Assembly (NCBI GenBank): GCA_024235695.1
Contig: JACKLX010000008.1
Location: 62,001-126,000 of the forward strand
DNA length: 64,000 bases
Direction of reading: 5' to 3'
Source of the DNA: Accumulibacter sp.
GTDB taxonomy: Bacteria > Pseudomonadota > Gammaproteobacteria > Burkholderiales > Rhodocyclaceae
Of this stretch, positions 9,441 to 64,000 are shown piece after piece; within the stretch, counting starts at the first letter, position 1, and each line of letters begins with the position of its first letter. Under the pieces are notes generated by a model. It had not been told where the DNA came from. It saw only the letters and a program-made list of their open reading frames with translations, and searched no databases. Position numbers and translations under genes: made by a program.

Positions 9441-10652
9441 ATGCTCGCTCTGCCGTATTGGCGCCTGTCCGGCTATTACTTCTTCTATTTTGCCTTCATC
9501 GGCGCCTTTTCGCCGTATTTCGGGCTTTATCTCCAGTCACTGAGCTTCTCTGCCTGGGACATCGGTCTGCTGATGTCGCAGATGCAGCTGATGCGGCTGT
9601 TCGCGCCCTACCTCTGGGGAGCACTGGCCGATCGCCTGGGTCGGCGGCTGGCGATCGTTCGCCTGGCGGCGTTGCTCAGCCTTCTCGGTTTCTCGAGTTT
9701 CTTCGCGGTGCGCAGCTTCGAGGCGATGCTGGTCGCCATGGCATTGCTGGCCTTTTTCTGGAGCGCCGCGCTGCCGCTGGTCGAAACGGTCACCTTCGAC
9801 CACCTGCGCGAGCAACCGGCGCGTTACAGCCGCATTCGCCTGTGGGGATCGATCGGTTTCATCGTCGCCGTGATGGCTACCGGCGCGCTGCTCGATCACG
9901 TCGCCCTGTCCGGATTGCTGTCGGTGATCGTCGTTACGCTGCTCGGCATTCTCGGCTATGCGCTGGTGCTTCCCGAGTCATCTCCCCATGCTTCGACGGA
10001 TGATCAGCTGCCGGTTGGCGCGATCCTCGGCCAGCGGCGCGTGCGGGCGCTGTTCGCCGCCTGTTTCGCGATGTCGGCAGCACACGGTGCGCTCTATGTC
10101 TTCTACTCGATCCACCTTGCCGAGCATCACTACAGCAAGTTCCTGGTCGGTTGCCTGTGGTCGCTGGGCGTACTGGCGGAGATTGTCGTCTTCTTCTTCA
10201 TGGTCGGCTTGCTGCGTCGCTATGGACTGCGTACCATCCTGCTGGTCAGCTTCGCGGCGGCGATTGCGCGCTTCCTGATGATTGGCTGGGGTGTCGAGTG
10301 GCTGTCGGTAATCGTTATCGCGCAGTTGCTGCATGGCCTGACCTTCGGCGCCTACCATGCGGCGGCGATCGCTGCCGTCAATCGCTGGTTTCCGGGTCGT
10401 TGCCAGGCGCGCGGCCAGGCCCTGTATTCCAGCCTGTCGTTCGGCGCCGGCGGCCTGGCGGGCAGCTTGCTGAGTGGCTGGACCTGGGATGCCTGGGGAG
10501 CGGCAACGACCTACACCCTGAGTTCGGCGTTCGCGGTCGTCGGCCTGGTGCTGGTCGCGCTCGGCGTCAGGAAGTCGGATCTGGATGGTGCCGCCGCGCG
10601 GCGCCCCGTGCGCATCGCCGAAACTGCACAGCCTTCCCGAGGTGCGAGATGA
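9441..10652 (+). CDS. MFS transporter, PPP-type (HcaT/YcaD-like)
   Basis: 403 residues with about 12 membrane segments. WRLSGYYFFYFAFIGAFSPYF, split by nothing else, and the loop motif LADRLGRRLAIVR after helix 2 are typical of the LacY-related MFS_1-like group that includes the 3-phenylpropionate transporter HcaT. LWGSIGFIVAV is the conserved helix-5 motif of that group. Substrate is unknown. Its last four bases overlap the M48 protease gene (ATGA), so the two are translationally coupled. Confidence 0.85.
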   Translation: MLALPYWRLSGYYFFYFAFIGAFSPYFGLYLQSLSFSAWDIGLLMSQMQLMRLFAPYLWGALADRLGRRLAIVRLAALLSLLGFSSFFAVRSFEAMLVAMALLAFFWSAALPLVETVTFDHLREQPARYSRIRLWGSIGFIVAVMATGALLDHVALSGLLSVIVVTLLGILGYALVLPESSPHASTDDQLPVGAILGQRRVRALFAACFAMSAAHGALYVFYSIHLAEHHYSKFLVGCLWSLGVLAEIVVFFFMVGLLRRYGLRTILLVSFAAAIARFLMIGWGVEWLSVIVIAQLLHGLTFGAYHAAAIAAVNRWFPGRCQARGQALYSSLSFGAGGLAGSLLSGWTWDAWGAATTYTLSSAFAVVGLVLVALGVRKSDLDGAAARRPVRIAETAQPSRGAR

Positions 10653-50232: not shown

Positions 50233-51045
50233 CTAAGCGTTCGGTGAAGGTGTTGCGCGCCTTGCGGCCAAACCGAGCAACGACAGGCTCAGTCCGATCA
50301 GGACGAGAGTGCCGGGTTCGGGTACTTCCACTTTGACACTATCCCAGGCATTCCACGCGGCGACCGCCAGGCCGGTTGTCGGATCGATGGGAAACGGCTG
50401 GCTCTGCATCCCCGACTCGTTGAAACGCATCGCAACCACTTTCGTGATGTCGAAGAGCGGATCGCTCCAATAGAAGGAAAACGGGTTCTGCAGGCCGAGA
50501 TTCGGGCTGATCCAGAAGGTATCCCACAGATTGGCCGGGCCAAAGCGGAACCATCCCCGGGAACGTCCATTGACATCCATCAATTCGAGCGACAGGTCCC
50601 AGACACCACGCGGCGGATAGACGGAGAAATGAATCATGCTGCTGCCGCTGCCCAGGTTAACCGGCGTGCTGCCAAGCGGATCGAAGCGATAGTCCCACCA
50701 GGCGATGGCAAGGGCGTCGTTCGACGGCAGATCCCAGGACATCACCAGGGTGTTGTCGATCACCGTCGCCTGCGGGTCGCTGACGCCATCGAAATCAGGC
50801 GTCAGCCGGGCGGCCTCAACGGCCAGCGGGACCCCTTGCGGCAGGTAGAATTGCAGTGCCGCGTCGGTCAGATTTGCGCCGGCGGTTGACGGCACGATGT
50901 TGCCCGCCGCGATCGCCTGTTGCCAGGACCCGGCGGTGGGGATGTCAACCAGGATGGTCGCGCCTGCCCTTGCCGAGGAGAGGATCGCCAGGGCGGCGAT
51001 AAGGATGCCAAGGCATCTCTTGATGGGCGTCTGCTTGTCAGTCAT
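50233..51045 (-). CDS. PEP-CTERM protein
   Basis: 270 residues. Signal peptide (CLGILIAALAILSSARAGA, then TILVD) and a C-terminal sorting signal VEVPEPGTLVLIGLSLSLLG with an Arg-rich end (LAARRATPSPNA): the Pro-Glu-Pro, hydrophobic helix, Arg pattern recognised by exosortase. The body is a beta-rich domain with no recognised enzyme fold (FYLPQGVPLAVEAARLTP, then YPPRGVWDLSLELMD). Exported, cleaved and likely surface or matrix associated. AGGAGG precedes ATG 51045. Upstream lies a near-consensus sigma-54 promoter (51265-51280) and a shared upstream motif (51356-51372). Confidence 0.9.
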   Translation of the reverse strand: MTDKQTPIKRCLGILIAALAILSSARAGATILVDIPTAGSWQQAIAAGNIVPSTAGANLTDAALQFYLPQGVPLAVEAARLTPDFDGVSDPQATVIDNTLVMSWDLPSNDALAIAWWDYRFDPLGSTPVNLGSGSSMIHFSVYPPRGVWDLSLELMDVNGRSRGWFRFGPANLWDTFWISPNLGLQNPFSFYWSDPLFDITKVVAMRFNESGMQSQPFPIDPTTGLAVAAWNAWDSVKVEVPEPGTLVLIGLSLSLLGLAARRATPSPNA

Positions 51046-51264: not shown

Positions 51265-51280
51265 AGCAACAATCGCGCCA
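51265..51280 (-). promoter_or_regulatory. Sigma-54 (RpoN) promoter of the PEP-CTERM gene
   Basis: On the minus strand TGGCGCGATTGTTGCT matches the -24/-12 consensus TGGCACG-N4-TTGCW at 11 of 12 defined positions, including the essential GG and GC with correct 10-bp spacing. It predicts a start near 51253 and a leader of about 205 nt. Confidence 0.75.
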
Positions 51281-51355
51281 AGAAAAGAAACCAATCGAAA
51301 AATCATGCGGTTATCGCAACCGGCTAGAACCTGGCGATGTTTCCGCGCCAACAAC

Positions 51356-51372
51356 TGTAAGAAATTCCGACA
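51356..51372 (-). promoter_or_regulatory. Putative enhancer (upstream activator) site, shared motif copy 1
   Basis: On the minus strand TGTCGGAATTTCTTACA, continuing with GT, matches the site before the repeat protein (62159-62177) at 15 of 19 positions. It lies 76-92 bp upstream of the sigma-54 promoter, the usual distance for an enhancer-binding protein such as PrsR. Confidence 0.6.
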
Positions 51373-51891
51373 CTTCCATGGCGACAGTCGGTGTTATATC
51401 AGCGCCAGATGCCACTCCTGCCGCTGCGACGGCGGCGCGTTTGCCGGTGGCAAATTGACGGAAGCGAAGAAGACGTGCTCGACCTTGCTTACCTGGCCAT
51501 TTTCCCCTGCCGAGCGTCGCGGCGAGTTCCCTGTCCGCTTGCGAGCCGCTTCTTGGCGCACCAACGGAAGCATCGCTGACCACCTGCCGTCGCTTTCGTG
51601 AGCGGGCGACGGTGTGGCTGTTGCGACCGGCCGATCATCAATGCCCCGGGGATCCGCGTCAGTGCCTTGGCGAGCGGACGGCAGCCGTTGGCTTGCTGGC
51701 GGTCGGCGTGCGCGCCGACCGGCTGCTCCCCGAATGGTGATGCTTGTTGGGCTGGAATGGGGGAAAATCGGCGAGGTGACTGCGATCGCATGCGTCAGCC
51801 CTGCTTCCCACGGCCTGGCCTGATTTCGTATCCTGGCGGCGTGCCACGGATGTGCGTAAGTGCAGTCGAACTTGATTGAAATGGAGGCGAA

Positions 51892-52422
51892 ATGGACAGC
51901 AACTCTTCAGTAGGGCGACGCGGGCTGCTGGTTTTCAGCACCCTGCTTGTTGTCGCGTGTGCCGGTTACAGCGGCGCCAATCTCAAGCCGGGCGTGTCGA
52001 CCTTGCCCGAAGTCGTAGCCTCGATGGGCCAGCCGGCGATGTCCTGGACGAATCCGGATGGCAGCGAACAACTGGCTTACCCGCGCGGCTCGGGGGGGAC
52101 ACAGACGTTCATGGCGTATGTCGGGCCGGATGGCAAACTGCAGCGCATCGAAAAAGTGCTGAACCAGGAGCATTTTGCGCGTGTCCGGCCGGGAATGAGC
52201 AAGGACGAGGTGCTGCGCATCCTCGGTCCGTCGGGATCGCTATGGACCCAGTTCTACGCGCGGAGCAATCAGCTCGCCTGGTCGTGGCTGTTCTGCAACA
52301 GCTGGAATGCCGAGGAGTTCTTTGACGTCATGTTCGACGCCAGCACCGGTATCGTGCATTCGACCGGGCAGCACCCGAACCTGGCGGGGCCTGACGGCGT
52401 GCAGCCGCGTTGCGGGCAATGA
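51892..52422 (+). CDS. BamE/SmpA-like lipoprotein
   Basis: 176 residues. Signal with lipobox LLVVAC (Cys23), so a lipoprotein. Two BamE-like repeats: LKPGVSTLPEVVASMGQPAM and FARVRPGMSKDEVLRILGPS, each with the G.s..ev...lG.P pattern of the SmpA/OmlA fold. BamE itself is about 113 residues and carries one such unit, so this is a longer, duplicated relative rather than BamE proper. Role in outer-membrane assembly is possible but not shown. GGAGG precedes ATG 51892. Confidence 0.8.
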   Translation: MDSNSSVGRRGLLVFSTLLVVACAGYSGANLKPGVSTLPEVVASMGQPAMSWTNPDGSEQLAYPRGSGGTQTFMAYVGPDGKLQRIEKVLNQEHFARVRPGMSKDEVLRILGPSGSLWTQFYARSNQLAWSWLFCNSWNAEEFFDVMFDASTGIVHSTGQHPNLAGPDGVQPRCGQ

Positions 52423-52580
52423 CCAGCATGCTGGATGACCTGCCGGGCGGGCGAGTCGCGGCGCTCGACGGTTGGCGAGGCTTCTTGAAGCTCCGACGCG
52501 TCGACGCCCGCACACTTCCGGCAAGCGCCCGATCGGCGGTCATCGGGCATTCGGCGGCGGGCTAGCGAAGGACTTGTTGC

Positions 52581-53792
52581 TCAGTCCGGTCGTTCCTGCG
52601 GCTCGTCGGTCAAGGCCAGTTCGCCCTGACGTGGCGACTGCCGATCCGGCGCCGCGCCGCGTGTCGACAGCGCGCTGACGCGCACGCCGAGCAGCCGCAG
52701 CCTGCGGTCGAGCGGAACCCGCCGCAGGCATTCGCCGGCCGCGCGGCGGATCGTTTGCGGATCGCCGGTGGCGGTGGCCAGCGTCAGGTCGCGGGTCAGG
52801 GTCTGAAAGTCGGCAAAACGCAGCTTGATGCCGACCGTGCGTCCCAGGCAGTCCTTGCGTCGCAGGTCTTCGGCGACACGCGCGCACAGGCTGCTGAAGA
52901 TGCCGCTCAGCGTCTCGCGATCGTGGCGTGGATGCAGGTCGCGGTCGAAGGTCGTTTCGCGACTGATCGACTTCGGGTCCGACGATGTGACCAGCGGTCG
53001 GTCGTCGACGCCGTGTGCCGCCGCGTGCAGCCAGCTGCCATAACTCCGGCCGAAGTGCTGCCGCAGCAGGCTCGCGTCGACCGCGGCCAGTTCGCCGATG
53101 CGGTGGATGCCGAGCGTCGCCAGGCGGTCGCCGGCCTTCGGGCCGATGCCGTTGATCTTGCGCACCGGCAGCGGCCAGATCCGTGCCGCGACATCGGCGC
53201 TGCCAAGTACCGTCAGACCGTCCGGCTTGTCGAGGTCCGAAGCGATCTTGGCGAGCAGCTTGTTGGCCGCGACGCCGATCGAGCACGACAGGCCCGTCGC
53301 CTCGCGGACCGCGTCCTTGATGCTCTGCGCCAGCGGTCGGGTGGCGTCGGGCAGGGCAGCGAGGTCGATGTATATTTCATCGATGCCGCGGTCTTCGATC
53401 TGCGGCGCGATCTGCGCGACCGCCGCCTTGAACAGCCGCGAGTAGTGGCGATAGGCGGCAAAATCGACCGGCAGCAGAATCGCCTCCGGCGCCAGCCGGG
53501 CTGCTTTCATGATTCCCGTCGCCGAGAAGACGCCGAGTGCGCGCGCCTCGTAGGTCGCGGTGGTGACGACGCCGCGGCCGACGTAGTCGCGCAACCTGGC
53601 GAAACGGCGGCCGCCGTCGGCGAGCGCCAGCGGTTGCTGTTCGCGGCTGCCGCCGATCACCACCGGCAGGCCACGCAGTTCCGGGTAGCGCAGCAATTCG
53701 ACCGACGCGTAGAAAGCGTCCATGTCGAGATGGGCGACGCGGCGTGCCGGTGGCTCTGCCGACCGCTCCGGGGCGGTACCGTCGAGCTTCAA
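52581..53792 (-). CDS. dinB: DNA polymerase IV (Y-family)
   Basis: 403 residues. Catalytic carboxylates are in AHLDMDAFYASVE (Asp23, Asp25) and DRGIDEIYIDL; SIGVAANKLLAKIASD is the palm motif; NGIGPKAGDRLATLGI is the thumb HhH motif. Translesion polymerase induced by damage. No ATG precedes the conserved start; a TTG at 53792 overlaps the TGA of the NamZ gene (TTGA), giving correct length. The C-terminus ends with a QGELALTDEP stretch, which resembles a beta-clamp-binding motif (QGELAL-like). Confidence 0.9.
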   Translation of the reverse strand: MKLDGTAPERSAEPPARRVAHLDMDAFYASVELLRYPELRGLPVVIGGSREQQPLALADGGRRFARLRDYVGRGVVTTATYEARALGVFSATGIMKAARLAPEAILLPVDFAAYRHYSRLFKAAVAQIAPQIEDRGIDEIYIDLAALPDATRPLAQSIKDAVREATGLSCSIGVAANKLLAKIASDLDKPDGLTVLGSADVAARIWPLPVRKINGIGPKAGDRLATLGIHRIGELAAVDASLLRQHFGRSYGSWLHAAAHGVDDRPLVTSSDPKSISRETTFDRDLHPRHDRETLSGIFSSLCARVAEDLRRKDCLGRTVGIKLRFADFQTLTRDLTLATATGDPQTIRRAAGECLRRVPLDRRLRLLGVRVSALSTRGAAPDRQSPRQGELALTDEPQERPD

Positions 53793-55000
53793 TAGAGGAG
53801 GAACTCCTGCCGCATCCGCTCCCAGGCGTCTTCGTCGACGCGGCTCAGGGCGTCGAGGTCGGCCGGCGTCGCTGCCGGATCGTCGACCCACTCGCGCAGC
53901 AGCGGCGAGCCGTTGATCAGATCGATCGCCAGACGGTCGTTTTCGTACTCGTAGGCGAAATCGCGCCACAGCGGGTAGTCCGGGTGCAAGCGCCGCAGCG
54001 CCTTGAAGGCCAGGCATTGCAGACGCCATGGGCGAAACCAAGGGTGCTGGTAATGACCGTCGTCGACGTGGATCTGCACGCCCCGGCAGAGCCTGCCGGC
54101 GTGTTTGTGGAAAGTCGGCTCGAACCAGCATTCGCGCAGGCGGCAGCCGAGCAGCCAGTCCGGCGCCAGCGCGTCCATCGTCGCGATCAGCCGGCCGGCA
54201 TCGATATCGGGTGCGCCAAAAAGCTCCAGCGGTCGGGTCGTGCCGCGTCCTTCGGAGAGCGTCGTCCCTTCGAGCATCACCGTACCGGCGTAACAGCGGG
54301 CCATCGAGACGTTCGGCGCGTTCGGGCTGGGGTTGATCCAGCTCCGTTCGCCGGCCGGCCAGCCGTAACCGGGCGCCGCATCGGGCAGCCAGCCGTGCAT
54401 GGCGATTACCGTACAGTCGACGTCGAGGCCGAGCGTGCCGACGAACCAGTACGCCAGTTCGCCCATGGTCAGGCCATGGCGCATCGGCAGTGCGCCGGCG
54501 CCGACGAAACTCTCCCAGCCGGGGCGAAGCAGCAGTCCCTCGAGCGGCCTCCCGACCGGGTTCGGGCGATCGAGGATCCACACCGACTTGCCGTGCGTGG
54601 CCGCGGCTTCGAGCAGGTAGCGCAGGGTAGTGATGAAGGTATAGATGCGGCAGCCGAGGTCCTGCAAGTCGATCAACAGCACGTCGAAGCTGTCGATCAT
54701 CGCCGGCGTCGGGCGGCGTACCTCGCCGTACAGGCTGAATACCGGAATGCCGTGTACCGGATCGACGAAATCCGGTGATTCGATCATGTTGTCCTGCTTG
54801 TCGCCGCGCAGGCCGTGTTGCGGGCCGAAGGCAGCGGTCAGCCGCAGCTCGGGCAGCGCCGCCAGTGCGTCGAGTGCGTGTGTCAGGCGGGCGGTGACCG
54901 AAGCCGGGTGCGCGACCAGCGCCAGGCGGCGACCGTGCAGCGGTTTGCGCAGCTCGGGGTTGTTGAGCAGCCGGTCGAGGCCGAATTCGATGGCGGACAT
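53789..55000 (-). CDS. Exo-beta-N-acetylmuramidase NamZ-like (DUF1343)
   Basis: 403 residues. GLDRLLNN start, FGPQHGLRGDKQDNM, IDLQDLGCRIYTFITTL and GRGTTRPLELFGAP are characteristic of the DUF1343 family, of which B. subtilis NamZ (YbbC) cleaves terminal MurNAc from peptidoglycan fragments. No signal peptide is visible, so a cytoplasmic role in muropeptide recycling is possible. ATG 55000 has AAGGAA upstream. It sits between the DOMON-like gene (11 bp) and dinB (overlap) in one operon. Confidence 0.88.
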   Translation of the reverse strand: MSAIEFGLDRLLNNPELRKPLHGRRLALVAHPASVTARLTHALDALAALPELRLTAAFGPQHGLRGDKQDNMIESPDFVDPVHGIPVFSLYGEVRRPTPAMIDSFDVLLIDLQDLGCRIYTFITTLRYLLEAAATHGKSVWILDRPNPVGRPLEGLLLRPGWESFVGAGALPMRHGLTMGELAYWFVGTLGLDVDCTVIAMHGWLPDAAPGYGWPAGERSWINPSPNAPNVSMARCYAGTVMLEGTTLSEGRGTTRPLELFGAPDIDAGRLIATMDALAPDWLLGCRLRECWFEPTFHKHAGRLCRGVQIHVDDGHYQHPWFRPWRLQCLAFKALRRLHPDYPLWRDFAYEYENDRLAIDLINGSPLLREWVDDPAATPADLDALSRVDEDAWERMRQEFLLY

Positions 55001-55011
55001 CCAGGTTTCCT

Positions 55012-55587
55012 TCAGGCACGCACTTGCAGCGGCGCCAGTTCGAGCGTGAAGCCGTTGCGGTGGTGAAAATCGGGCAAGGCGGCAGGGTGGTGCAGCGCCC
55101 AGTAGCTGTGGCTGCCGTCGACGGTGTCGGACGCTTCGACGACGGCAGCCAGGCCGATCTGCAGCCTTGCCGTTGCTGCCGGCAAGGCGTCGGGCGGCAG
55201 CGTCGCCGCCAGTTCGAGCCGCCCCGCCGACTGCCTGGCGATGATCCGTGGCGGGCCGAGCAGCGCCGGCGTCGCGTCGCGCTGCCGGTAGCCGGCGAAC
55301 GCATAGGCGGCCCACTGCCCCGACGGTGAAAAATTGAACTCGCGGTAGGCGGGATCGCCGGCGGCGCCGACGAAGGCCTCGAAGCAGGTGTGTTGCCAAA
55401 GGCCGTCGGCGCAAGCCGCCGAGCGCGGTTCCGGGATCAGCAGGCGGGCGATGTCGCCGCGCAGGCACCAGCTGAGTTCGAGGCTACCGTCGGCGCGACG
55501 CTCAGCGTGCGCTTCGATCGTCCGCACCACCGGTGCCGGCGTCGCCGGATGCGGGCAAAGGGTCAGGGTGGATTCGCTCGGGAACAT
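55012..55587 (-). CDS. DOMON-like domain protein
   Basis: 191 residues. W..TCFE (LWQHTCFEAFVG), then YREFNFSPSGQWAAYAFAGYR, then YWALHHPAALPDFHHR match the DOMON-like family, beta-sandwich proteins possibly binding heme or sugars. No signal peptide. First gene of an operon with the NamZ-like and dinB genes, 11 bp before the former. Function is unknown. Confidence 0.82.
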   Translation of the reverse strand: MFPSESTLTLCPHPATPAPVVRTIEAHAERRADGSLELSWCLRGDIARLLIPEPRSAACADGLWQHTCFEAFVGAAGDPAYREFNFSPSGQWAAYAFAGYRQRDATPALLGPPRIIARQSAGRLELAATLPPDALPAATARLQIGLAAVVEASDTVDGSHSYWALHHPAALPDFHHRNGFTLELAPLQVRA

Positions 55588-55918
55588 TGGTCGCTTGTCG
55601 AGGCGGCAGGTCAGTAGAGGATTCTAGCCGTTTCAGCGCTGTTTCTTCCGGGCTTCGCCGCTTTCTTGCGCCGCCGGGAGCGCCCCGCAGGGGGAGCGCC
55701 CGCCGGGCGCCGCCAGGAATGCAAGAAGGCGCTTGATCGCCGCTACTCCAGGCCTACAATCAAGACTCAAGAGTGACCGCCGGCTGCTCGGTGCTTCTTG
55801 CCCAACGCGGCCTGGCCACCGTGATCGGTGGGCCGTGCGGCGGGACTTGCGGGGCCTTCGAGCCGCGCCAGGCTACGGGACAACTTGCACCGGGTGCTTC
55901 ACCTGAAAGGAGTTCGTG
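55588..55918. other. Intergenic region with promoter for the secreted protein
   Basis: 331 bp upstream of a small secreted protein gene and divergent from the DOMON-like gene. A GC-rich inverted-repeat-like patch lies at about 55670-55715. TTGATC at 55733-55738 and TACAAT at 55755-55760, spacer 16 bp, form a plausible promoter for the plus-strand gene. AAAGGAG at 55906-55912 is its ribosome binding site. No gene seen. Confidence 0.45.
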
Positions 55919-56359
55919 ATGAGAACAGTCCTCGCCGCAATTCTCCTGGTTGGCGCTTCAAGCCAGGTTCTCGGACAGCCATCGAGCGCCTTTCGCCTGA
56001 GCGATCTCCACGCCCAGGGTGCGACGCAGTTATCGAAGGATGAACTGCAGGTACTGCTTCCCGGGGCAAAGGTGGAAAGCCGCACCGTGCAGGGTTCCAC
56101 CCGGTTTTGGGAGAACTCTGCGGACGGCAGTCTGCTTGCGTCCACCGACAATCGTGGCGACGTCAGCTCGAGACGACATGCCACTGCCCGTGGGAGCTGG
56201 CAACTGGCTGACAACGGCAGCTATTGCGTCCTTCTCGAATGGAAGAGCAAGACAGAGCAATGGTGCCGATTCATCTTCAAGTCCGGCGACAGGTACTTCG
56301 CCGTGAAGTCAACGTCCGATCAATCGAGCGTCGCCCATGAACTGGCATTTTCTCGCTGA
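55919..56359 (+). CDS. Small secreted protein, DUF995-like
   Basis: 146 residues from ATG 55919 (a GTG one codon earlier is possible). Signal peptide MRTVLAAILLVGASSQVLG. Mature part has the layout of DUF995-type periplasmic proteins: LSKDELQVLLPGAKVE start, RGSWQLADNGSYCVLLEWK and WCRFIFKSGDRYFAV, with two cysteines that could pair. I do not know a function; the family assignment is tentative. Monocistronic. Confidence 0.6.
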   Translation: MRTVLAAILLVGASSQVLGQPSSAFRLSDLHAQGATQLSKDELQVLLPGAKVESRTVQGSTRFWENSADGSLLASTDNRGDVSSRRHATARGSWQLADNGSYCVLLEWKSKTEQWCRFIFKSGDRYFAVKSTSDQSSVAHELAFSR

Positions 56360-56412
56360 CATGGTCGCTTGTCACGGCGGCTTTTCCGGCGCATCGCTCC
56401 GAGCGGTCCGGG

Positions 56413-56718
56413 TCAGCAGCCGCTCAAGCCGTGCCAGCCGCAAAGCTCGCGCTTGACCCAGGCGAGCAGGATCCACAGCCCGAACATCAGGAAGAACGCC
56501 ACCAAGGGAACGAGCCGGTCGACCACGCGCCGCGGTGCGAGCTGGCGCGTCAGGCGGATCGCCGGGCGGGTGACGATCTGGAAGAGCCGGTAGATCGGAT
56601 TGCCGGTGCGACCGGCTCCCGCCAGCAGCGCCACCGCGCCTTGCCCGAGCAGGCAGAGCAGCGCGACCTCGACCAGTGCGCGCACGATCGAGACGATCAA
56701 CAGGTCGGGATGGCTCAT
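56413..56718 (-). CDS. Small membrane protein, YggT-like
   Basis: 101 residues with two hydrophobic segments (VEVALLCLLGQGAVALLAG and LVPLVAFFLMFGLWILLAW) flanking an Arg-Pro-containing loop (NPIYRLFQIVTRPAIRLTR). The loop with R-P resembles the YggT family, although YggT usually has two copies of this unit. ATG 56718 is the only reasonable start. The frame is open upstream but with no homology. Function unknown. Confidence 0.6.
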   Translation of the reverse strand: MSHPDLLIVSIVRALVEVALLCLLGQGAVALLAGAGRTGNPIYRLFQIVTRPAIRLTRQLAPRRVVDRLVPLVAFFLMFGLWILLAWVKRELCGWHGLSGC

Positions 56719-57329
56719 GCTATCTGCCGCTGGACTCTTGCCTTGAAAGTCGCGTCTTCGACTGACGAATCGCCGCTCGCCCGTGCTGCTGCGACGGGTC
56801 GGCGAAAGCGGCGGGGAATTGCGCGCGCGCTCTCTGTCCGGCCAAGGATTCCGGCGTCCAAGCCGGAACGAACACGGCAGGTGAGGGCAACGGTGATCAC
56901 GTCCATGATCGGCTGTTTCGGCAGTTGATGACCGTACGGCCTGAATCCGCGGGGTCTGCGTGGCGTCTGCAGATGGTCCTCGTGGTCCTCGAGTAGTGGC
57001 GACATTATGCCCGGGCATCGCTGTCTTGTTTCTTCGGCAGCGACGACAAGGTCCGCGATGCTGGGCACAAGTAAGCGCTCGCTTCGGTGATTGCGGCGAG
57101 GCCGTTCGATTGCGGTCGCGACCGGCGAAGGGCGCATCGACCGCGACCCGGCCGGCGCCGCTTCCCGATCTGCTGGTCTATACTGGTCTGGTCGTGTGTC
57201 GTGGCCCGCGTGGAGCGCGCGGTGCCGCCGCTGCCCGGGAGGAGCTTGCGCGGCCTGCCGTTGATGCAACAGCGCAAAGCCGCGACGCGAAGTGCTGGCC
57301 GCAGGCGACCGACGAAGAGGAGAACGACG
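56719..57329. other. Intergenic region
   Basis: 611 bp between the YggT-like gene and a PEP-CTERM gene. I looked for the sigma-54 and TGTCGG motifs found before the other two exported proteins and did not find a convincing copy; TGGCCCGCGTGGAGCG at 57202-57217 is a weak sigma-54-like match. No gene with a ribosome binding site recognised. Confidence 0.45.
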
Positions 57330-58358
57330 ATGGGGTGCCTTGAAAATGACCTGGCAGCGCCACTGCGGATCGCTCGGACTGTCCGGCGTTGCCTGTTTGG
57401 CCTCGCCTTGCTGGTTTTCGCCGGCGCCGCACAGGCGGCGGCATTGACCGGGATCCAGGACTACCGCTATCTGGTCAGTGGTCTTCCCTCGCCGGAGAGA
57501 GAGTTCCCGGCGCTGGTCCATGAGTTCGAGGGACTGGCGTTTACCGCCGACGGCAGCCTTTGGGCCTCGATCGCTGCCGACCCCCTGGGTACCCGGCGGG
57601 AATTCTGGCGGCTGGACGTCAAGGACAATGTCGTCCATCAGGCGATCGCCGATAGCCGTTTCGAGCCGACCGCGCAGTTTGCCAATCCGGTCGCCCTGGC
57701 CGGCGCGGGAGCGCAGCTGATCGTCGGCGAGAACTTCCACGCCTTCAGATCGCGAGGCTTTCCGCTGAACGACATTCTCTGGGCATTCACCCCGGGGGTC
57801 AGTACGCCGGCTGTGCCCGACTGGACCTTCTCGCTCGCCGTGACCGACTGCGACGAAGTGGAAGGCGCCGCCGCGGCCAGGGGAAAGCTCTATGTGAGCT
57901 GTCAGGGCGACGGCACTATTCTCGAGCTTGACCCGCAAAGCGGCCAGGTCGGCAGGAAATTCGCGCTGAATGCCCAGTTGCTGGGCCTGGAAGCAATCGA
58001 TGACCGCCGCCTGCTGGTCGGCGATTACAGCAATCATCGCTTGCTGGTTTTCGACCTCGGCCTCGAGCAGGTCAGCGAGTCGATCGATCTGGCGAGCCTC
58101 TTTCGCGGGCCGGGCAGCGACTACTTCCGGCTTACCGGCGAGGAGTACCTGGTTCAGGTCGTGCCGTCGGAAGGTTTCAGGAGAACGCCCGATCCCGACG
58201 GCCTCGCCTATCGCGATGGGACGATCTACATGGCATTTGACGGCGACCTGCGAATCTTCGCCATCTCCCTGAACGTCTCCGAGCCCGGAACGGTGGCGCT
58301 GCTCGGGCTGGCATTGCTCGGCCTGGCCTGGCTCGGTCGGCGTCGACCGAGCGGCTAG
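57330..58358 (+). CDS. PEP-CTERM protein with beta-propeller-like body
   Basis: 342 residues. Signal peptide (VRRCLFGLALLVFAGAAQAA). The body shows repeated strands such as GLAFTADGSLWASI, GAAAARGKLYVSCQGDGT and LEAIDDRRLLVGDYSNHRLL, reminiscent of an SMP-30/NHL-type six-bladed propeller. The C-terminal sorting signal is the variant SEPGTVALLGLALLGLAWLG followed by RRRPSG. Exported and probably anchored or released by exosortase. GAGGAG precedes ATG 57330. Ligand unknown. Confidence 0.85.
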   Translation: MGCLENDLAAPLRIARTVRRCLFGLALLVFAGAAQAAALTGIQDYRYLVSGLPSPEREFPALVHEFEGLAFTADGSLWASIAADPLGTRREFWRLDVKDNVVHQAIADSRFEPTAQFANPVALAGAGAQLIVGENFHAFRSRGFPLNDILWAFTPGVSTPAVPDWTFSLAVTDCDEVEGAAAARGKLYVSCQGDGTILELDPQSGQVGRKFALNAQLLGLEAIDDRRLLVGDYSNHRLLVFDLGLEQVSESIDLASLFRGPGSDYFRLTGEEYLVQVVPSEGFRRTPDPDGLAYRDGTIYMAFDGDLRIFAISLNVSEPGTVALLGLALLGLAWLGRRRPSG

Positions 58359-58781
58359 CGGCAGCCCGGCCCGGTTGCGCCGCCACGCCGTCGCGCAGCC
58401 CGGGCCTGCACGAAGCGTCCGGCTGGCCGTGCCGCGACCGCGCGTCGGCCGCGCGGCCCGCGGGGATTTCGCCTGGCCGCCGGAGTCGCCCCTTCGACCG
58501 TTTCTCCGACACGCCGGCATGTCCCCGGCATTCCATGCGATATGCATGGCCCTTGTGCGGCCAGCCAGTTCGCGGCATTGCGCCGCAAGGGTTGGCGATG
58601 CGCCGCGTTTTCATGCCGATAGCCTTGCCGTGGGCAGCGATCTGCGGCATGATTTGCCTCCACGCCGACGACGGCGGCTCACTCGATCAATCTGCCGAAC
58701 AGCCGATGACCTTCCCGCGCCATGGTTCTTCACTACTGCCGAGCGCCGCCTTGCGGCCAGCGGTAGCGAGCTAGGGCGCGC
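58359..58781. other. Intergenic region
   Basis: 423 bp before the DUF1538 operon. A reading frame starting at 58598 (MRRVFMPIALPWAAICGMIC) looks like a weak signal peptide but has no ribosome binding site and a low-complexity end, so I do not call it. No terminator with a T-run and no clear promoter. Confidence 0.4.
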
Positions 58782-60284
58782 ATGGGTTCGTTGCTGCGCC
58801 TGGTCAAGGAACTCCTGCAAGAGGCGGCCCGGGATCTGGCGCCGACACTGATCGTCGTCGCGATTTTCCAGACTTTTTTCATCCAGCGCATGCCGGACAG
58901 TCCCGGCGCGCTGATCGGCGGCTTCGCCGCGGTGCTGATCGGCCTGGCCCTGTTCGTCAAGGGGCTGGATGCGGCGATCTTCCCGGCCGGCGAGACGATG
59001 GCCTTCGATTTTGCCCGCCGGGGATCGTTTCTGTGGCTGATGGCCTTCGCCTTCTGCATCAGCTTCGCATCGGTCGCCGCCGAGCCGGCCTTGATGGCCG
59101 TGGCTTACAAGGCCGAGGCCGTTTCCGGCGGCAGCATGGGTGCCATGACGCTGCGCATGGTTGCCGCCCTGGCGGTCGGGCTGGCGGTGATGGTCGGCGT
59201 CTGGCGCATCGTGCTCGGGCATCCGATTGCCCTCTACCTGATTCCCGGTTATCTGATCGTCGTCTCGCTGACCGCCATGTCGCCGCCGGAACTGGTCGGC
59301 CTGGCGTTCGATTCGGGCGGCGTCGTCGCTTCCACGGTCACCGCGCCGTTACTGACGGCGATGGGCGTTGGCCTGGCGGCGACCATCCGCGGCCGCAACC
59401 CGATGCTCGACGGCTTTGGCCTCATCGCCTTCGGCGCGCTGGCGCCGATGATCGTCATCCAGCTCTACGGCATCCTTTTCTTCGTTGCCGCCGACCATGG
59501 TACGGCGGTGGTGCTGATGCCGACCGACGACGAGCATCAGCTGACGGCCTGGGCAATGCTCGGCAACTTCCTGGGGATGGTCAAGAACCTCTTGCCGATC
59601 ATCGCCGTTGTCTTGTTCTCGAGTTTCGTCATCCTCCGCCGGCCACTTGCCGACCCCAGGGGATTGGCGGTCGGCATGCTCTTCGTGGCGGTCGGCCTGT
59701 ACCTGTTCGACGAGGGTTTGCAGGTCGGGCTATTTCCGCTCGGCGACGAAATGACCAGCGGCCTGATGCAGGACGGCGCGGCGATGTGGGTGCTCTATCT
59801 CTACGGCTTCCTGATCGGTTTCGCCACTACCATGGCCGAACCGGCGCTGATCGCCCTGTCGATCAAGGCCGATGAGGTCAGCCTCGGCCAGCTCAGGGGA
59901 TTCTGGCTGCGGACGCTGGTTTCCATTGGCGTCGGTGTCGGCCTGGTGATCGGCTGCGCACGCATCGTCGACGGAACACCGATCGCCTACTGGCTGATCC
60001 CCGGTTACCTGCTGGTGATCGTCATGACCAGACTGGCGCCACGCTTCATCGTCCCGATCGCTTTCGACTGTGGCGGCGTGACCACTTCGACGGTGACCGT
60101 GCCGCTGGTGACCGCGCTTGGCGTCGGCCTGGCCGAACGGACGGCGGGGAGGGATCCGATGATCGACGGCTTCGGCCTGATCGCCTTCGCCTCGCTGCTG
60201 CCGATGATCATCGTCATGTCCTATGGCATCCTCGCCACCTTGCTCTTGCAGTCAAGGAAACCGGTCAAGGAGAGAACATCATGA
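58782..60284 (+). CDS. DUF1538 family membrane protein (internally duplicated)
   Basis: 500 residues, about 12-14 membrane segments, in two similar halves (about 10-240 and 255-490). Matching landmarks in each half: FPAGETMAF / FPLGDEMTS; EPALMAV / EPALIAL; IPGYLIV / IPGYLLV; FDSGGV..STVT.PL / FDCGGV..STVT.PL; and G.NPMLDGFGLIAF / G.DPMIDGFGLIAF. This is the DUF1538 family, function unknown; the inverted or direct duplication and conserved charged residues in the membrane suggest a transporter. Its stop overlaps the PII-like gene by 4 bp, so the PII-like protein is probably its regulator. Confidence 0.85.
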   Translation: MGSLLRLVKELLQEAARDLAPTLIVVAIFQTFFIQRMPDSPGALIGGFAAVLIGLALFVKGLDAAIFPAGETMAFDFARRGSFLWLMAFAFCISFASVAAEPALMAVAYKAEAVSGGSMGAMTLRMVAALAVGLAVMVGVWRIVLGHPIALYLIPGYLIVVSLTAMSPPELVGLAFDSGGVVASTVTAPLLTAMGVGLAATIRGRNPMLDGFGLIAFGALAPMIVIQLYGILFFVAADHGTAVVLMPTDDEHQLTAWAMLGNFLGMVKNLLPIIAVVLFSSFVILRRPLADPRGLAVGMLFVAVGLYLFDEGLQVGLFPLGDEMTSGLMQDGAAMWVLYLYGFLIGFATTMAEPALIALSIKADEVSLGQLRGFWLRTLVSIGVGVGLVIGCARIVDGTPIAYWLIPGYLLVIVMTRLAPRFIVPIAFDCGGVTTSTVTVPLVTALGVGLAERTAGRDPMIDGFGLIAFASLLPMIIVMSYGILATLLLQSRKPVKERTS

Positions 60285-60628
60285 AATTTTCTGCCGTTGT
60301 GCTGATCGTCCCGGAAGAGGACGAGGATCGCGCCGTCGAGTTGCTCAAGCAGGCCGGCGCCACCGGCATCACCATCCTCAAGGGCAAGGGGCTGCGGCAC
60401 AATGAGCGCAAGACCTTTCTCGGTCTCGGCCTGGAGCGCAAGGAATCACTGCTGCTGTGCGTCACCGAGCAGCAACTGGCGATGCGCATTCTGCGCGCGG
60501 TCAAGTTGCAGATGAAGCTCGATCTGCCGGGAGGAGGTCTGGCGTTTTCGCTGGCGCTGGGCAGCGTCGTCGGCATCGGTGTCGAGCAGATGAAGCTGTT
60601 CCGGCGCGAAGTCGAGGGCGGCATGTGA
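60281..60628 (+). CDS. PII-like nitrogen-regulator-type protein
   Basis: 115 residues. A ferredoxin-like fold of the PII superfamily: FSAVVLIVPEEDEDRAVELL, with GATGITILKGKGL as the strand leading to a T-loop-like stretch (RHNERKTFLGLGLERKES). The tyrosine uridylylated in GlnB is not seen, and the C-terminus (GGGLAFSLALGSVVGIGVE) is unlike canonical GlnB, so it is a divergent PII-like protein. It probably binds a nucleotide and controls the adjacent DUF1538 membrane protein (ATGA overlap). Confidence 0.75.
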   Translation: MKFSAVVLIVPEEDEDRAVELLKQAGATGITILKGKGLRHNERKTFLGLGLERKESLLLCVTEQQLAMRILRAVKLQMKLDLPGGGLAFSLALGSVVGIGVEQMKLFRREVEGGM

Positions 60629-60693
60629 GCCAGGGCGCCGACTGCAGGCCCGGTCGATTACTATGCACGATCATTGAGTGAAGGAGTTCTAGC

Positions 60694-61089
60694 ATGCTGG
60701 TTGCCGGAATCATGAAGAGAAACGTCATCACCATCAGTCCGCTGGCGACCGTCCGAGAGGCTCTGATGATGATGAAGGAGCGCGGCGTCAAGTCGCTGGT
60801 GGTGGAAAAGCGCCATTCCGGCGATGCGCACGGGCTGATCGCCTATCGCGACGTCGCCAGGGCGGTGATCGCCGACGACGGCGACATCGACCTGCTCAAC
60901 GTGTATGACATTGCCCAGAAGCCGGCGCTGCAGGTCTCGCAGCACCTCGAGGTCCGCTATCTGGCGCGGCTGATGATCCAGTACGCGGTGAAGAGCGTGC
61001 TGGTGATCGACAACAACGATCTGCAGGGCTTCGTTTCGGATACCGACGTCGTCGCCAGTCTCATCGATCGGGCAGCGCAGGAAAAATAG
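60694..61089 (+). CDS. Two-CBS-domain protein
   Basis: 131 residues, a tandem CBS pair (Bateman module): MKRNVITISPLATVREALMMM and LEVRYLARLMIQYAVKSVLV, with the G-[ILV]-[IV]-[ST/AY]..D pattern in HGLIAYRDVAR and QGFVSDTDVVAS. CBS modules bind adenosyl compounds and sense energy state. 65 bp after the PII-like gene, on the same strand, with AAGGAGTT upstream. Together with the PII-like protein it suggests dual ligand control of the DUF1538 protein. Confidence 0.88.
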   Translation: MLVAGIMKRNVITISPLATVREALMMMKERGVKSLVVEKRHSGDAHGLIAYRDVARAVIADDGDIDLLNVYDIAQKPALQVSQHLEVRYLARLMIQYAVKSVLVIDNNDLQGFVSDTDVVASLIDRAAQEK

Positions 61090-61101
61090 GGCCGACCGGC
61101 T

Positions 61102-61539
61102 ATGGAAAAGAACGTCCGCCGCTATTCTGCCTTCATCCCGCGCTGGTGCCAGGCCTTCGGCGACCACGCGCCGGATCCCGGCGGCGAGGGTCGGGCAGTC
61201 GAGTGGCTGGTCGGAGCCGATGCCGTCGGTATTGTCGTCCTGCCCGAGATTCGACGCATGTTGACGCACGAGCTGCTCGGTGCCAGGAATCCCGAACTCG
61301 AGTTCGGCGCGCGGTCGGTGCGGCTCAACCAGCGAACCTTCGACCAGATGAACATCCTCGGGCACCCGGGCTATGCCGCCTTGCGCGAATTGCTGTTGGG
61401 CGCTGACCAGTTGCACCTGTTCCTGACCTACCATCTGATCCATCCGCCAGGCACGCGGATCATCACTGTCGCCCGCAAGCCACCGCTGCCGCTGCTGTAC
61501 AAGGAGATGGCACCGCTGCCGGTGATTGTCAGCGAGTGA
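61102..61539 (+). CDS. Protein of unknown function in the DUF1538/PII/CBS operon
   Basis: 145 residues, soluble, no signal peptide. I do not recognise a family. Features: RRYSAFIPRWCQAFGDHAPDP, quoted to its first 20, then IVVLPEIRRMLTHELLG, SVRLNQRTFDQMNILGH and HLFLTYHLIHPPGTRII. There are several His residues and one Cys, so a metal site is possible but unproven. 12 bp after the CBS gene, hence the same operon. It could be a new partner of the PII-like and CBS proteins. Confidence 0.6.
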   Translation: MEKNVRRYSAFIPRWCQAFGDHAPDPGGEGRAVEWLVGADAVGIVVLPEIRRMLTHELLGARNPELEFGARSVRLNQRTFDQMNILGHPGYAALRELLLGADQLHLFLTYHLIHPPGTRIITVARKPPLPLLYKEMAPLPVIVSE

Positions 61540-61682
61540 GCTGCCTGTTGTCTGGCGGCGGCGCTTCTTGCCCGGAGCGTTGATCGGCCGCATCGCCCGC
61601 CGTCCGCCGACGCGGTCGTCGGCCAGCCGAGGCTGCCGATCGCCGGTGCTATAATCGCCGCTCATTTCAGCGCGCCTCTCCG

Positions 61683-62126
61683 ATGCTCATCACCCGTCGT
61701 CTCGAATTCGATGCAGGCCACCGCATTCCCGACCACCAGAGCCAGTGTCGCCATCTGCACGGCCACCGTTACGCGATCGAGATCACCCTGGGCGGCGACA
61801 TCATCCGGCAGGCCGGCGACCCGGCCAACGGCATGGTGATGGACTTCTCCGAGATCAAGGACCTGGCCAGACGGCATCTGGTCGATCTCTGGGATCACGC
61901 CTTCCTGGCCTGGGCAGGCGACCAGCCGGTGGTCGACTTCCTGCGCTCGCTGCCGGGTCACAAGACGGTGCTCTTCGATTGCGTCCCGACTGCCGAAAAC
62001 CTCGCCCAGACGGCGTTTGCGATCCTCGACGGCGTTTACCGCGATAGCTACGGCAACCACCTGCGCCTCGAACGCCTGCGCCTCTACGAAACGCCCAATT
62101 GCTGGGCCGAGGCGATTCGCCCCTAG
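61683..62126 (+). CDS. queD: 6-carboxy-5,6,7,8-tetrahydropterin synthase
   Basis: 147 residues. It converts dihydroneopterin triphosphate to 6-carboxytetrahydropterin in queuosine/7-deazaguanine synthesis. Zinc ligands are H13 in DAGHR and H26, H28 in CRHLHGHRY; catalytic Cys22 lies in the same motif, and the glutamate is in PTAENLAQ. Length and YE-like ending LYETPNCWAE fit QueD. ATG 61683. Monocistronic between the DUF1538 operon and the large repeat protein. Confidence 0.93.
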   Translation: MLITRRLEFDAGHRIPDHQSQCRHLHGHRYAIEITLGGDIIRQAGDPANGMVMDFSEIKDLARRHLVDLWDHAFLAWAGDQPVVDFLRSLPGHKTVLFDCVPTAENLAQTAFAILDGVYRDSYGNHLRLERLRLYETPNCWAEAIRP

Positions 62127-62158
62127 CGCGCGGCACGTCGGCACCGCCGCAGGTCAAC

Positions 62159-62175
62159 TGTCGGTAAATTTTACA
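62159..62175 (+). promoter_or_regulatory. Putative enhancer site, shared motif copy 2
   Basis: TGTCGGTAAATTTTACA, inside the imperfect inverted repeat ACTGT...ACAGT (62157-62177). It agrees with copy 1 (51356-51372) at 15 of 19 positions, and is 88-104 bp upstream of the sigma-54 promoter at 62263. Confidence 0.6.
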
Positions 62176-62262
62176 GTGGCCGCGTGGCAGGGCCGGCGCA
62201 GCTTGTCGCTCGTCCGCTCGACGCATTGATTTATCAGGGATGGCCTGCCTTGCTCGGCGACA

Positions 62263-62278
62263 TGGCTTGATTCTTGCT
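62263..62278 (+). promoter_or_regulatory. Sigma-54 (RpoN) promoter of the repeat protein
   Basis: TGGCTTGATTCTTGCT matches TGGCACG-N4-TTGCW at 10 of 12 defined positions, with GG and GC correctly spaced. Predicted start near 62290, leader about 135 nt. A second, weaker match TGGCAGGGCCGGCGCA lies at 62185-62200. Confidence 0.7.
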
Positions 62279-62425
62279 ATAGCGCTTGTACCGTAGCCGC
62301 GGGTCTCTCCTGAGGCGCTTGTCCGCGTTCTACCGTTTGCTGTCGATAGATGGTCAAACCGGGTTCCGTCGCCGCCGCGCGACGGGTCAGTTGAAACGAT
62401 GTTTCGGTTGGCGGAGCGTAGACAA

Positions 62426-64000
62426 ATGAAAAACAACAACGCGCGGAGCGTTTCGGTGCGGCCGGTCGGCCGACTCCTGGCCTTGCCCATGGCTTTGGCA
62501 ATGATCGGCGTGGCGCCAGGGGCGCAGGCTGCCAACTTCGCGTGCGACTGGATCGCCAACGCCGGCTCGTGGCTTGCCAGCGCCAATTGGAGCACGTGCA
62601 ACAGCGCCTACCCCAACAACGGCGGTGGCAACACCTTCGACGCCACGATCAACACCGGAGGGTACACGGTCGACCTGACCTCTCCGGTCAGCATCGGCAC
62701 GCTGACCATCAGCCAGAACACCCTGAACAATTCGTCGACGCTGACCACCACCGGCGGCGTCGTGATTAGCTCGTACGGCGGCACGCTGCTCGGCGGCACC
62801 TACGTCGGTAGCGGCGGGACGGCGGTTTCATTCGCCTCTGGCGCCTATGGCACGCTGGACAACGTCACCCTGCGCGGCAACCTGGACCTCTCGGCCACCT
62901 CGGCAACCGCGTACTTCGTCAATGGCCTGGCGGTCAGGGACGTCAGCGGCAGCAACCCGGGTGTGATCAACGTCACGGGTAATGGCGCGTGGTTGCAATC
63001 ACAAGGCACGCAGACGCTGAACGGTGCGACGGTGCACCTTGGTGGTGCCGTAGGTGGCAGCTCCATCTATTCGGGCGTCGGAACGCTGACCCTGGGCGCC
63101 AACCTGCAGGTTCTCGCCGATGGTGCCGGCTCGTACGCGTATGTTTATGGTGGCCCGATCGTCAACGAGGGCAGCATGGCCTTCAGCAACGGCTTCGGCA
63201 ACGCCATCTTCCCGAGCGAGTTCACCAACAAGGGCACGATCACCGTCGCCCCGGCAGCGGCGCTGTCCATCACCCCAACGACGCTGACCAACAGCGCGAC
63301 CGGCAGCATCACCGGTGGCGACGGTTCGTCCATCCAGTTTGGTGGGGCGGCAGCGAGCAACGCCGGTACGATCACCATGAACGGCGCCGGTGGCACCACC
63401 GTTCTGCAGATGGGCTACGCCGGCAACCCGGGCGACCAGCCCTACTACCAATGGACCAACACCGGCACGATCAACGTCACCGACACCGAGTTGCGTCTCG
63501 GCGGCTACTTCATGCAGTCCGACATCGGCACGATCAACCGGACCGGCGGCACGGTCAAGCTCAACGGCTTCCTCGAAAACAGCGGCCAGACGCTGGACAT
63601 CAGCGCCAGCTCGCCGCTCGACGGCCTGCGCATGGCCGGTGGCACGATCCACGGCGGCACCGTTCTCGGCAACGCCGCCGCCAACCTGTTCGCCACCGAC
63701 TCCAGTAGCGGCACGCTCGACGGCGTCACGGTGCACGGCAATCTCGACGTCACCGGTTACGGCGCCACGGCGTTCTTCGTCAATGGCCTGAGCGTCAAGG
63801 ACAGCAGCGGCAGCAATCCGGGCGTGATCAACGTCACGGGTCCCGCCGCCTACCTGCAATCGAATGGCACGCAGACGCTCGACAACGCGACGGTGCACCT
63901 CGGCGGCGCCTCGAGTGCCGGCTTCATCTATTCGGGCGCCGGAACGCTGACCCTGGGCGCCAACCTGCAGGTTCTCGCCGACGGTGCCGGCTCGTACGGC
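62426..64000 (+). CDS. Large exported repeat protein (beta-helix/autotransporter-like), N-terminal part
   Basis: 525 codons without a stop to the window end. Signal peptide: basic start (MKNNNARSVSVRPVGRLL) then LPMALAMIGVAPGAQAANFA. The rest is Gly/Thr/Ser/Asn-rich and predicted beta-helical. A unit of 287 residues repeats: GTLDNVTLRGNLDL at about residue 142 returns as GTLDGVTVHGNLDV at about 429, followed in both by SGSNPGVINVTG, TVHLGGA and GTLTLGANLQVLADGAGSY. Typical of large surface adhesins or PEP-CTERM beta-helix proteins; the C-terminal sorting signal, if any, lies outside. Its sigma-54 control links it to the PEP-CTERM gene at 51045. Confidence 0.85.
   Translation, partial: MKNNNARSVSVRPVGRLLALPMALAMIGVAPGAQAANFACDWIANAGSWLASANWSTCNSAYPNNGGGNTFDATINTGGYTVDLTSPVSIGTLTISQNTLNNSSTLTTTGGVVISSYGGTLLGGTYVGSGGTAVSFASGAYGTLDNVTLRGNLDLSATSATAYFVNGLAVRDVSGSNPGVINVTGNGAWLQSQGTQTLNGATVHLGGAVGGSSIYSGVGTLTLGANLQVLADGAGSYAYVYGGPIVNEGSMAFSNGFGNAIFPSEFTNKGTITVAPAAALSITPTTLTNSATGSITGGDGSSIQFGGAAASNAGTITMNGAGGTTVLQMGYAGNPGDQPYYQWTNTGTINVTDTELRLGGYFMQSDIGTINRTGGTVKLNGFLENSGQTLDISASSPLDGLRMAGGTIHGGTVLGNAAANLFATDSSSGTLDGVTVHGNLDVTGYGATAFFVNGLSVKDSSGSNPGVINVTGPAAYLQSNGTQTLDNATVHLGGASSAGFIYSGAGTLTLGANLQVLADGAGSYG
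62849..64000 (+). repeat. 861-bp tandem repeat within the exported protein gene
   Basis: The stretch beginning GGCACGCTGGAC at 62849 recurs at 63710, an offset of exactly 861 bp (287 codons). The segment at 63068-63139 is nearly identical to 63929-64000, while other parts are more diverged. The second unit is cut by the window end. Confidence 0.85.

Follow-up and report, generated by a model that had tools for sequence, protein, structure and literature searches.

A putative PrsR- and sigma-54-dependent promoter module at two PEP-CTERM genes of Accumulibacter, with spacers stepped by helical turns and sites resembling those of integration host factor

The DNA considered here, hereafter the window, is a stretch of 64,000 nucleotides from Accumulibacter sp. 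(assembly GCA_024235695.1, contig JACKLX010000008.1, here C8:62001-126000) within a genome of 3.83 Mb in 32 contigs, and it contains two putative promoters, A and B, lying on opposite strands upstream of genes for exported PEP-CTERM proteins, the substrates of exosortase. Each promoter combines a box predicted to bind the activator PrsR, a spacer with a site resembling that of integration host factor (IHF), and a -24/-12 site for polymerase carrying sigma-54 (RpoN); box and -24/-12 site correspond to motifs 1 and 2 of Haft et al. 2006 (PMC1569441). The genes and elements are as follows.

50233..51045, minus strand: gene A, a PEP-CTERM protein of 270 amino acids (Pfam PF07589 24.9 bits, TIGR02595 22.4 bits, both over the cut-off)
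51265..51280, minus strand: sigma-54 -24/-12 site (Haft motif 2) of promoter A, reading TGGCGCGATTGTTGCT
51301..51313, unstranded: IHF-like site in the spacer of promoter A, differing from the consensus at one position; the centre of the presumed bend lies 22 bp before the -24 GG
51356..51372, minus strand: predicted PrsR-binding box (Haft motif 1) of promoter A, TGTCGGAATTTCTTACA
62159..62175, plus strand: predicted PrsR-binding box (Haft motif 1) of promoter B, TGTCGGTAAATTTTACA
62219..62231, unstranded: IHF-like site in the spacer of promoter B, differing from the consensus at one position; the centre of the presumed bend lies 33 bp before the -24 GG
62263..62278, plus strand: sigma-54 -24/-12 site of promoter B, reading TGGCTTGATTCTTGCT
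62426..64000, continuing past the window, plus strand: gene B, a large repeat surface protein with choice-of-anchor D stretches (NF012200, 11 stretches)

These positions agree with the original prediction, which had given both -24/-12 sites with the same coordinates, strands and letters, the ATG starts at 51045 (minus) and 62426 (plus), and a shared 19-mer, TGTCGG-N8-ACAGT. The two copies of the latter, TGTCGGAATTTCTTACAGT at 51354-51372 (minus) and TGTCGGTAAATTTTACAGT at 62159-62177 (plus), were likewise found where and as claimed, and are identical at 15 of 19 positions, counted by eye. The 19-mer is separated from the -24/-12 site by 73 bases in promoter A and 85 bases in promoter B. Measured from the end of the 17-nt box to the T of TGGC, a distance denoted d, the spacers are 75 and 87 nt long, respectively, both in phase with the helical steps described below, and both contain the IHF consensus, with one mismatch each, at a set bend position. 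The box of promoter B ends in TTTACA and that of promoter A in CTTACA, one base off Haft motif 1.

The gene pair had been described as a PEP-CTERM gene and a repeat protein. Both genes are indeed of the exported type, and the description can be refined, as the repeat protein also carries a PEP-CTERM tail, VPEPGTLWLATLALLAIGRR, beyond the window, where the frame end reads VPEPGTLWLATLALLAIGRRAIRRTLGRAG; gene B as a target outside the PEP-CTERM class was dropped once this end had been read. An upstream ATG at 62399 lies in the same frame, which spans 2886 amino acids from there. The TIGR02595 score of gene B (14.3 bits) is below the cut-off of 16, so it is counted as a PEP-CTERM gene by its tail, as read directly, and by its context.

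As far as the available passages of Haft et al. go, the module was reported upstream of 99 of 167 proteobacterial PEP-CTERM genes and comprises a 17-nt motif ending in TTTACA, a spacer of mean 62.8 nt (SD 10.6, range 32-92) and a sigma-54 motif 2, with PrsR proposed as the binder (PMC1569441). Motif, spacer layout, sigma-54 motif and the PEP-CTERM genes downstream are the same in the PrsK-PrsR system described there as in the window, and both window spacers, measured to the T of TGGC, fall inside the published range. Since the window element matches motif 1, spacer and motif 2, it represents the rediscovery of a published element in another genome; the predicted binding motif that had been read directly from the window is real, but it is not new. 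For the spacer, the same passages give mean, SD and range only; a term search of the text available found neither IHF nor integration host, and the one use of 'helical' is in the title of a cited work. The helical steps and the IHF-like site were not part of the original prediction either.

Each half of the motif pair is weak on its own. In the window, the 19-mer pattern has two exact matches and, with up to two mismatches, 10 against 12.3 expected, while TGGC-N2-G-N4-TTGCT has three exact matches, the third of which (10456-10471) lacks a box. Across the genome, the 19-mer has nine exact matches against two for the backward pattern, and TGTCGG-N6-TTACAGT, with TT fixed, has seven, both window sites included; with up to two mismatches, the latter is only mildly enriched (56 against 37 backward). 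The two halves together behave differently. With at most two mismatches in all, the 149,135 bases around PEP-CTERM and motif matches contain 30 composites and the reversed control none; for the exact composite, TGTCGR-N6-TTACA-N(37-97)-GGYNYR-N5-TGCTT, 120 genomes of the order yield 112 occurrences, against 0 backward. A chance origin of the shared 19-mer was thus ruled out by the counts against backward and reversed controls. Promoter B falls outside this strict set because its -12 element is followed by A. The G and T that follow TTACA are kept in only 31/113 and 50/113 sites, respectively, the published motif being 17 nt long. Among these 113 sites, the 70 bp preceding the box showed no further conserved element, all columns being at 0.12 bits or less, and a second box copy within 250 bp upstream was found in 20 with up to one mismatch (hand count) and in 27 with two, at distances that show no clear phase by eye. 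According to Haft et al., in the part available, motif 1 is 'sometimes repeated' (PMC1569441).

The genome contains 31 TIGR02595 matches at E up to 1, 29 of them over the cut-off, and the module (composite with up to two mismatches, near the frame start) lies upstream of 21 of the 31, compared with 0 of 31 in the reversed control; 20 boxes serve these 21 matches, as two on C11 are credited with the same box. The genes prsT, prsR and prsK, together with one for an EpsB2-type glycosyltransferase, are adjacent on C20, and PrsR (740.9 bits), PrsK (845.2) and PrsT (908.4) all score over their cut-offs. Moreover, rpoN is located on C9, and ihfA, over the cut-off, at C8:54762-55040, outside the window; a second match, on C19, is under the cut-off, and no separate search for ihfB was made. 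Among the matches listed, the nearest to this PrsR is that of Candidatus Accumulibacter meliphilus (90% identical). These counts and this gene content bear out the regulon that had been proposed, in which RpoN and PrsR would control exported proteins, with the motif pair enriched near PEP-CTERM genes and PrsR as the predicted binder.

Across the order, the 112 exact composites are distributed over 32 of the 120 genomes, 17 in the genome studied and the remaining 95, which include one identical pair, in other genomes. PrsR is likewise found in 32, every match having E up to 1e-150 and a score above the cut-off. Both occur in 27 genomes, the module only in 5, PrsR only in 5 (G026, G029, G062, G073, G101) and neither in 83 (Fisher p 6e-17). 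The PrsR search scored 12 candidates per genome and, therefore, some absences may be false. From the 95 sites of relatives, 93 downstream frames were scanned, one site being without a frame and one duplicate being dropped; the frames were chosen by length within 400 bases, so some picks may be wrong. The proteins include 57 matches to TIGR02595 and 26 to VPLPA-CTERM (both at E up to 1) and 54 to PF07589 (E up to 0.01), in overlapping sets.

The box might instead be bound by another NtrC-type activator, as nine proteins of the genome, PrsR included, exceed 280 bits on the PrsR model, PrsR binding is itself deduced, and 5 of the 32 module-positive genomes lack a PrsR match at 12 candidates scored. 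However, only one protein in the genome is above the PrsR cut-off, module and PrsR co-occur as described, and Zoogloea prsK and prsR mutants no longer flocculate, with a PEP-CTERM gene under RpoN and PrsK-PrsR, as described in the passages available from PMC9012009; another activator thus seems quite improbable.

Steps of about 11 bp in the spacer were noticed first in the genome studied. Among the 95 sites of relatives, for which the search pattern covered spacers up to 96, 91 have d of 50-52, 60-65, 72-75, 83-87 or 94-96, in windows set on these same sites; the remaining four have d of 70, 77, 81 and 82, and none lies at 53-59 or 66-69. These sites give R 0.77 at period 11 (best 11.1), a value reached by 0 of 5000 jittered sets. 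Since both these windows and the bend windows described below were set on sites of the order, only an independent set of 21 sites tests them. It was obtained from 398 genomes drawn from the phylum and partly overlapping the first set, among which 15 new genomes contained these sites. Twenty of the 21 sites fall in the previously fixed windows (p 8e-9 under a flat null, 7e-8 under a smoothed null; R 0.66).

Common descent of the promoters, rather than function, could also produce such quantised spacing. Some sites are in fact related: 113 rows reduce to 64 when spacers more than 60% identical are dropped, and among the 21 new sites the three of G188, G287 and G253 have similar beginnings, as though they were a single promoter. 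However, the 64 non-redundant sites keep R 0.72, with 59 in the windows; different promoters within a single genome are phased (R 0.84 for 19 sites of the genome studied, R 0.82 for 20 sites of G028); and removing two of the three like sites leaves 19 new ones, of which 18 are inside the windows (p 4e-7). Descent as the cause of the spacing is, thus, highly improbable.

The spacers were also scored for the IHF consensus, WATCAANNNNTTR, at up to one mismatch in either orientation, and the first W of the consensus was taken as the bend centre, a position presumed from the IHF-DNA structure. The consensus is present in 61 of the 113 spacers compared with 17 in dinucleotide shuffles (exact matches 14 compared with 0.9), and in equal-length control stretches upstream and downstream in 9/113 and 7/113, respectively. 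The matches in both orientations coincide, 38 of 77 being at -19 to -22, 19 at -30 to -34 and 20 elsewhere. Bend windows at about 20 or 31 bp from the -24 GG, set on the same 113 sites, are occupied in 54 promoters compared with 3.3 in shuffles (largest 8 in 100 sets), and in 25 of the 64 non-redundant sites. In most matches, the arm towards the box measures 32-33, 41-45 or 52-56 bp and the arm towards the promoter 19-22 or 30-34 bp, according to a joint table. Eight of the 19 sites of the genome studied have a match with one mismatch, all eight in the bend windows, promoter A (centre -22) included. In the new set, where up to 63 letters of each spacer were covered, 12 of 21 sites have a match and 9 lie in the bend windows, compared with 0.86 in shuffles (largest 4 in 200 sets); at two mismatches, presence is uninformative (19/21 compared with 17.6), but 16 compared with 5.4 are found once position is added.

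The AT-rich, IHF-like patches could alternatively be AT tracts spaced in phase, which would curve the DNA or be contacted by the alpha subunit of the polymerase, as in bacterial enhancers that lack IHF, so that the phasing would derive from intrinsic curvature. When spacers are aligned on GG, AT-rich patches appear at about -32, -21 and -10, one helical turn apart, and sites without an IHF match are equally phased. Moreover, in the passages available, Vibrio qrr genes have IHF-free enhancers with AT-rich loops displaced by 11 bp (PMC4740811), and a Geobacter exosortase substrate goes up, not down, without IHF (PMC7962754). However, the excess of consensus matches over shuffles, exact ones included, is at odds with this explanation, and simple AT tracts do not predict that both IHF orientations line up at the same points; it is, therefore, possible but rather unlikely.

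With a probability of roughly three in four, both window sites are considered PrsR-dependent sigma-54 promoters of exosortase (PEP-CTERM) substrates that act through a short, helically phased and often IHF-bent loop. PrsK would phosphorylate PrsR, which would bind the 17-bp box TGTCGR-N6-TTACA and, from there, contact RpoN polymerase at -24/-12 via a short DNA loop, box and promoter being set a whole number of turns of about 11 bp apart. At between two fifths and one half of the sites, IHF may bend the DNA sharply in one of two fixed places, which would keep both arms in phase, mostly with 32, 43 or 54 bp from box to bend and 20-21 or 31-32 bp from bend to GG. Binding by PrsR and IHF, looping and transcription are inferred here from sequences, positions, statistics and gene content. 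A more specific proposal, towards which we incline with little more than even confidence, is a two-arm helical code, in which one IHF bend would be flanked by a single box and the sigma-54 promoter, each a whole number of turns of about 11 bp away; the arms would measure 32, 43, 54 (65) bp towards the box and 20, 31 bp towards the promoter, and IHF could lie in either orientation. What the exosortase regulon has in common across Pseudomonadota would then be the geometry of the loop, not a constant spacing, and the regulon would depend on IHF.

Several observations weigh against this interpretation. The module occurs without a PrsR match in G005, G052, G082, G100 and G103, and 10 of the 31 PEP-CTERM matches lack it, among them a third PEP-CTERM protein of the window, encoded at 57087-58358 (plus) between genes A and B (PF07589 24.6 bits), upstream of which the composite scan, with up to two mismatches in all, found no PrsR box. 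IHF matches at one mismatch are missing from 52 of the 113 spacers, and the non-redundant spacers without a match are just as phased (R 0.78, n=35); therefore, phasing needs no recognisable IHF site, and in such spacers its place may be taken by weak IHF sites or by intrinsic curvature. The guanine-plus-cytosine content of the spacers is 0.38, compared with 0.52 and 0.46 in the upstream and downstream controls, although the shuffles do keep dinucleotides. In the accounts available, the exosortase substrate GSU1943 of Geobacter sulfurreducens is about 3-fold up in two mutants of ihf (PMC7962754), which, should this gene carry the module, would be the opposite of activation by IHF, and a prsK-prsR plasmid did not restore floc formation in an Aquincola mutant (PMC9850573).

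Boxes were also seen before genes of other kinds. In the genome studied, one precedes a LuxR-type regulator with a GerE domain (L071:2432-3901, G000:C19) and another a large protein resembling, by eye, a metalloprotease with RTX-like repeats (L069:1072-3966, G000:C1); PrsR may, therefore, reach beyond exosortase substrates. At G000:C15:98978-99210 (L067), two boxes 214 bp apart stand before a second copy of the repeat-protein promoter and start, which is ended by the contig edge. In relatives, the other downstream products include two GGDEF proteins, a PilZ protein, a histidine kinase, a ShlB transporter and a glycosyltransferase; the GGDEF and PilZ genes, at L093, L150 and L151 (loci assigned by reading protein ends), suggest a tie to cyclic-di-GMP. 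A recurrent family of proteins of about 200-250 amino acids, with a Tat-like signal judged by eye, lies directly 3' of PrsR boxes in six genomes, its members being recognised by mutual BLAST:

L083, 514-1098
L085, 2519-3169
L112, 514-1254
L140, 511-1206
L154, 2483-3187
L076, 2510-3154

L100 and L072 of the genome studied perhaps also belong to it, and searches of Pfam and NCBIfam at E 0.001 gave nothing for the proteins of L083, L112 and L140. Within the window, a DUF1538 protein followed by a P-II-like protein is encoded at 58782-60628 (plus).

Among sigma-54 promoters, nifH and Pu are IHF-assisted. A position of IHF between enhancer and promoter is common for sigma-54, according to the passages available (PMC7962754; the first class in PMC4740811), and such promoters resemble those described here in this placement, which is not assigned to PrsR promoters in the open-access literature searched. 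That literature, outside which most subscription journals lie, yielded no statement on IHF or helical phase at PrsR promoters. As far as the available accounts go, Aquincola tertiaricarbonis pepA is, as here, an RpoN-dependent PEP-CTERM gene, with the transcript start mapped to a -24/-12 promoter and a predicted enhancer upstream (PMC9850573), and Zoogloea resiniphila offers a similar case of PrsK-PrsR control of an RpoN-dependent PEP-CTERM gene (as described in PMC9012009); the passages on both contain no PrsR binding experiment and nothing on IHF or helical phase. The loop lengths of the Vibrio qrr/LuxO sigma-54 enhancers also cluster about 11 bp apart, with AT-rich loops as here; however, the passages available concern 61 enhancers of qrr genes with no IHF site reported, whereas here many different genes are involved and about half of the loops contain the IHF consensus (PMC4740811). 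Overall, the original observation stands; its interpretation is sound, though already published, and the helical quantisation with the IHF-like site is a modest, testable advance.

PEP-CTERM proteins are required for floc formation in wastewater bacteria (PMC9850573, PMC9012009), and, in an Accumulibacter granule enrichment, one cluster of the secretome has a PEP-CTERM protein as its most abundant member (PMC12019908), in both cases according to the parts of these sources available. With many promoters, one activator and quantised loop lengths, the module provides a natural test bed for short-range sigma-54 enhancer action. Moreover, it predicts an effect of IHF on the surface proteins of flocs and granules and, hence, a possible link to growth phase.

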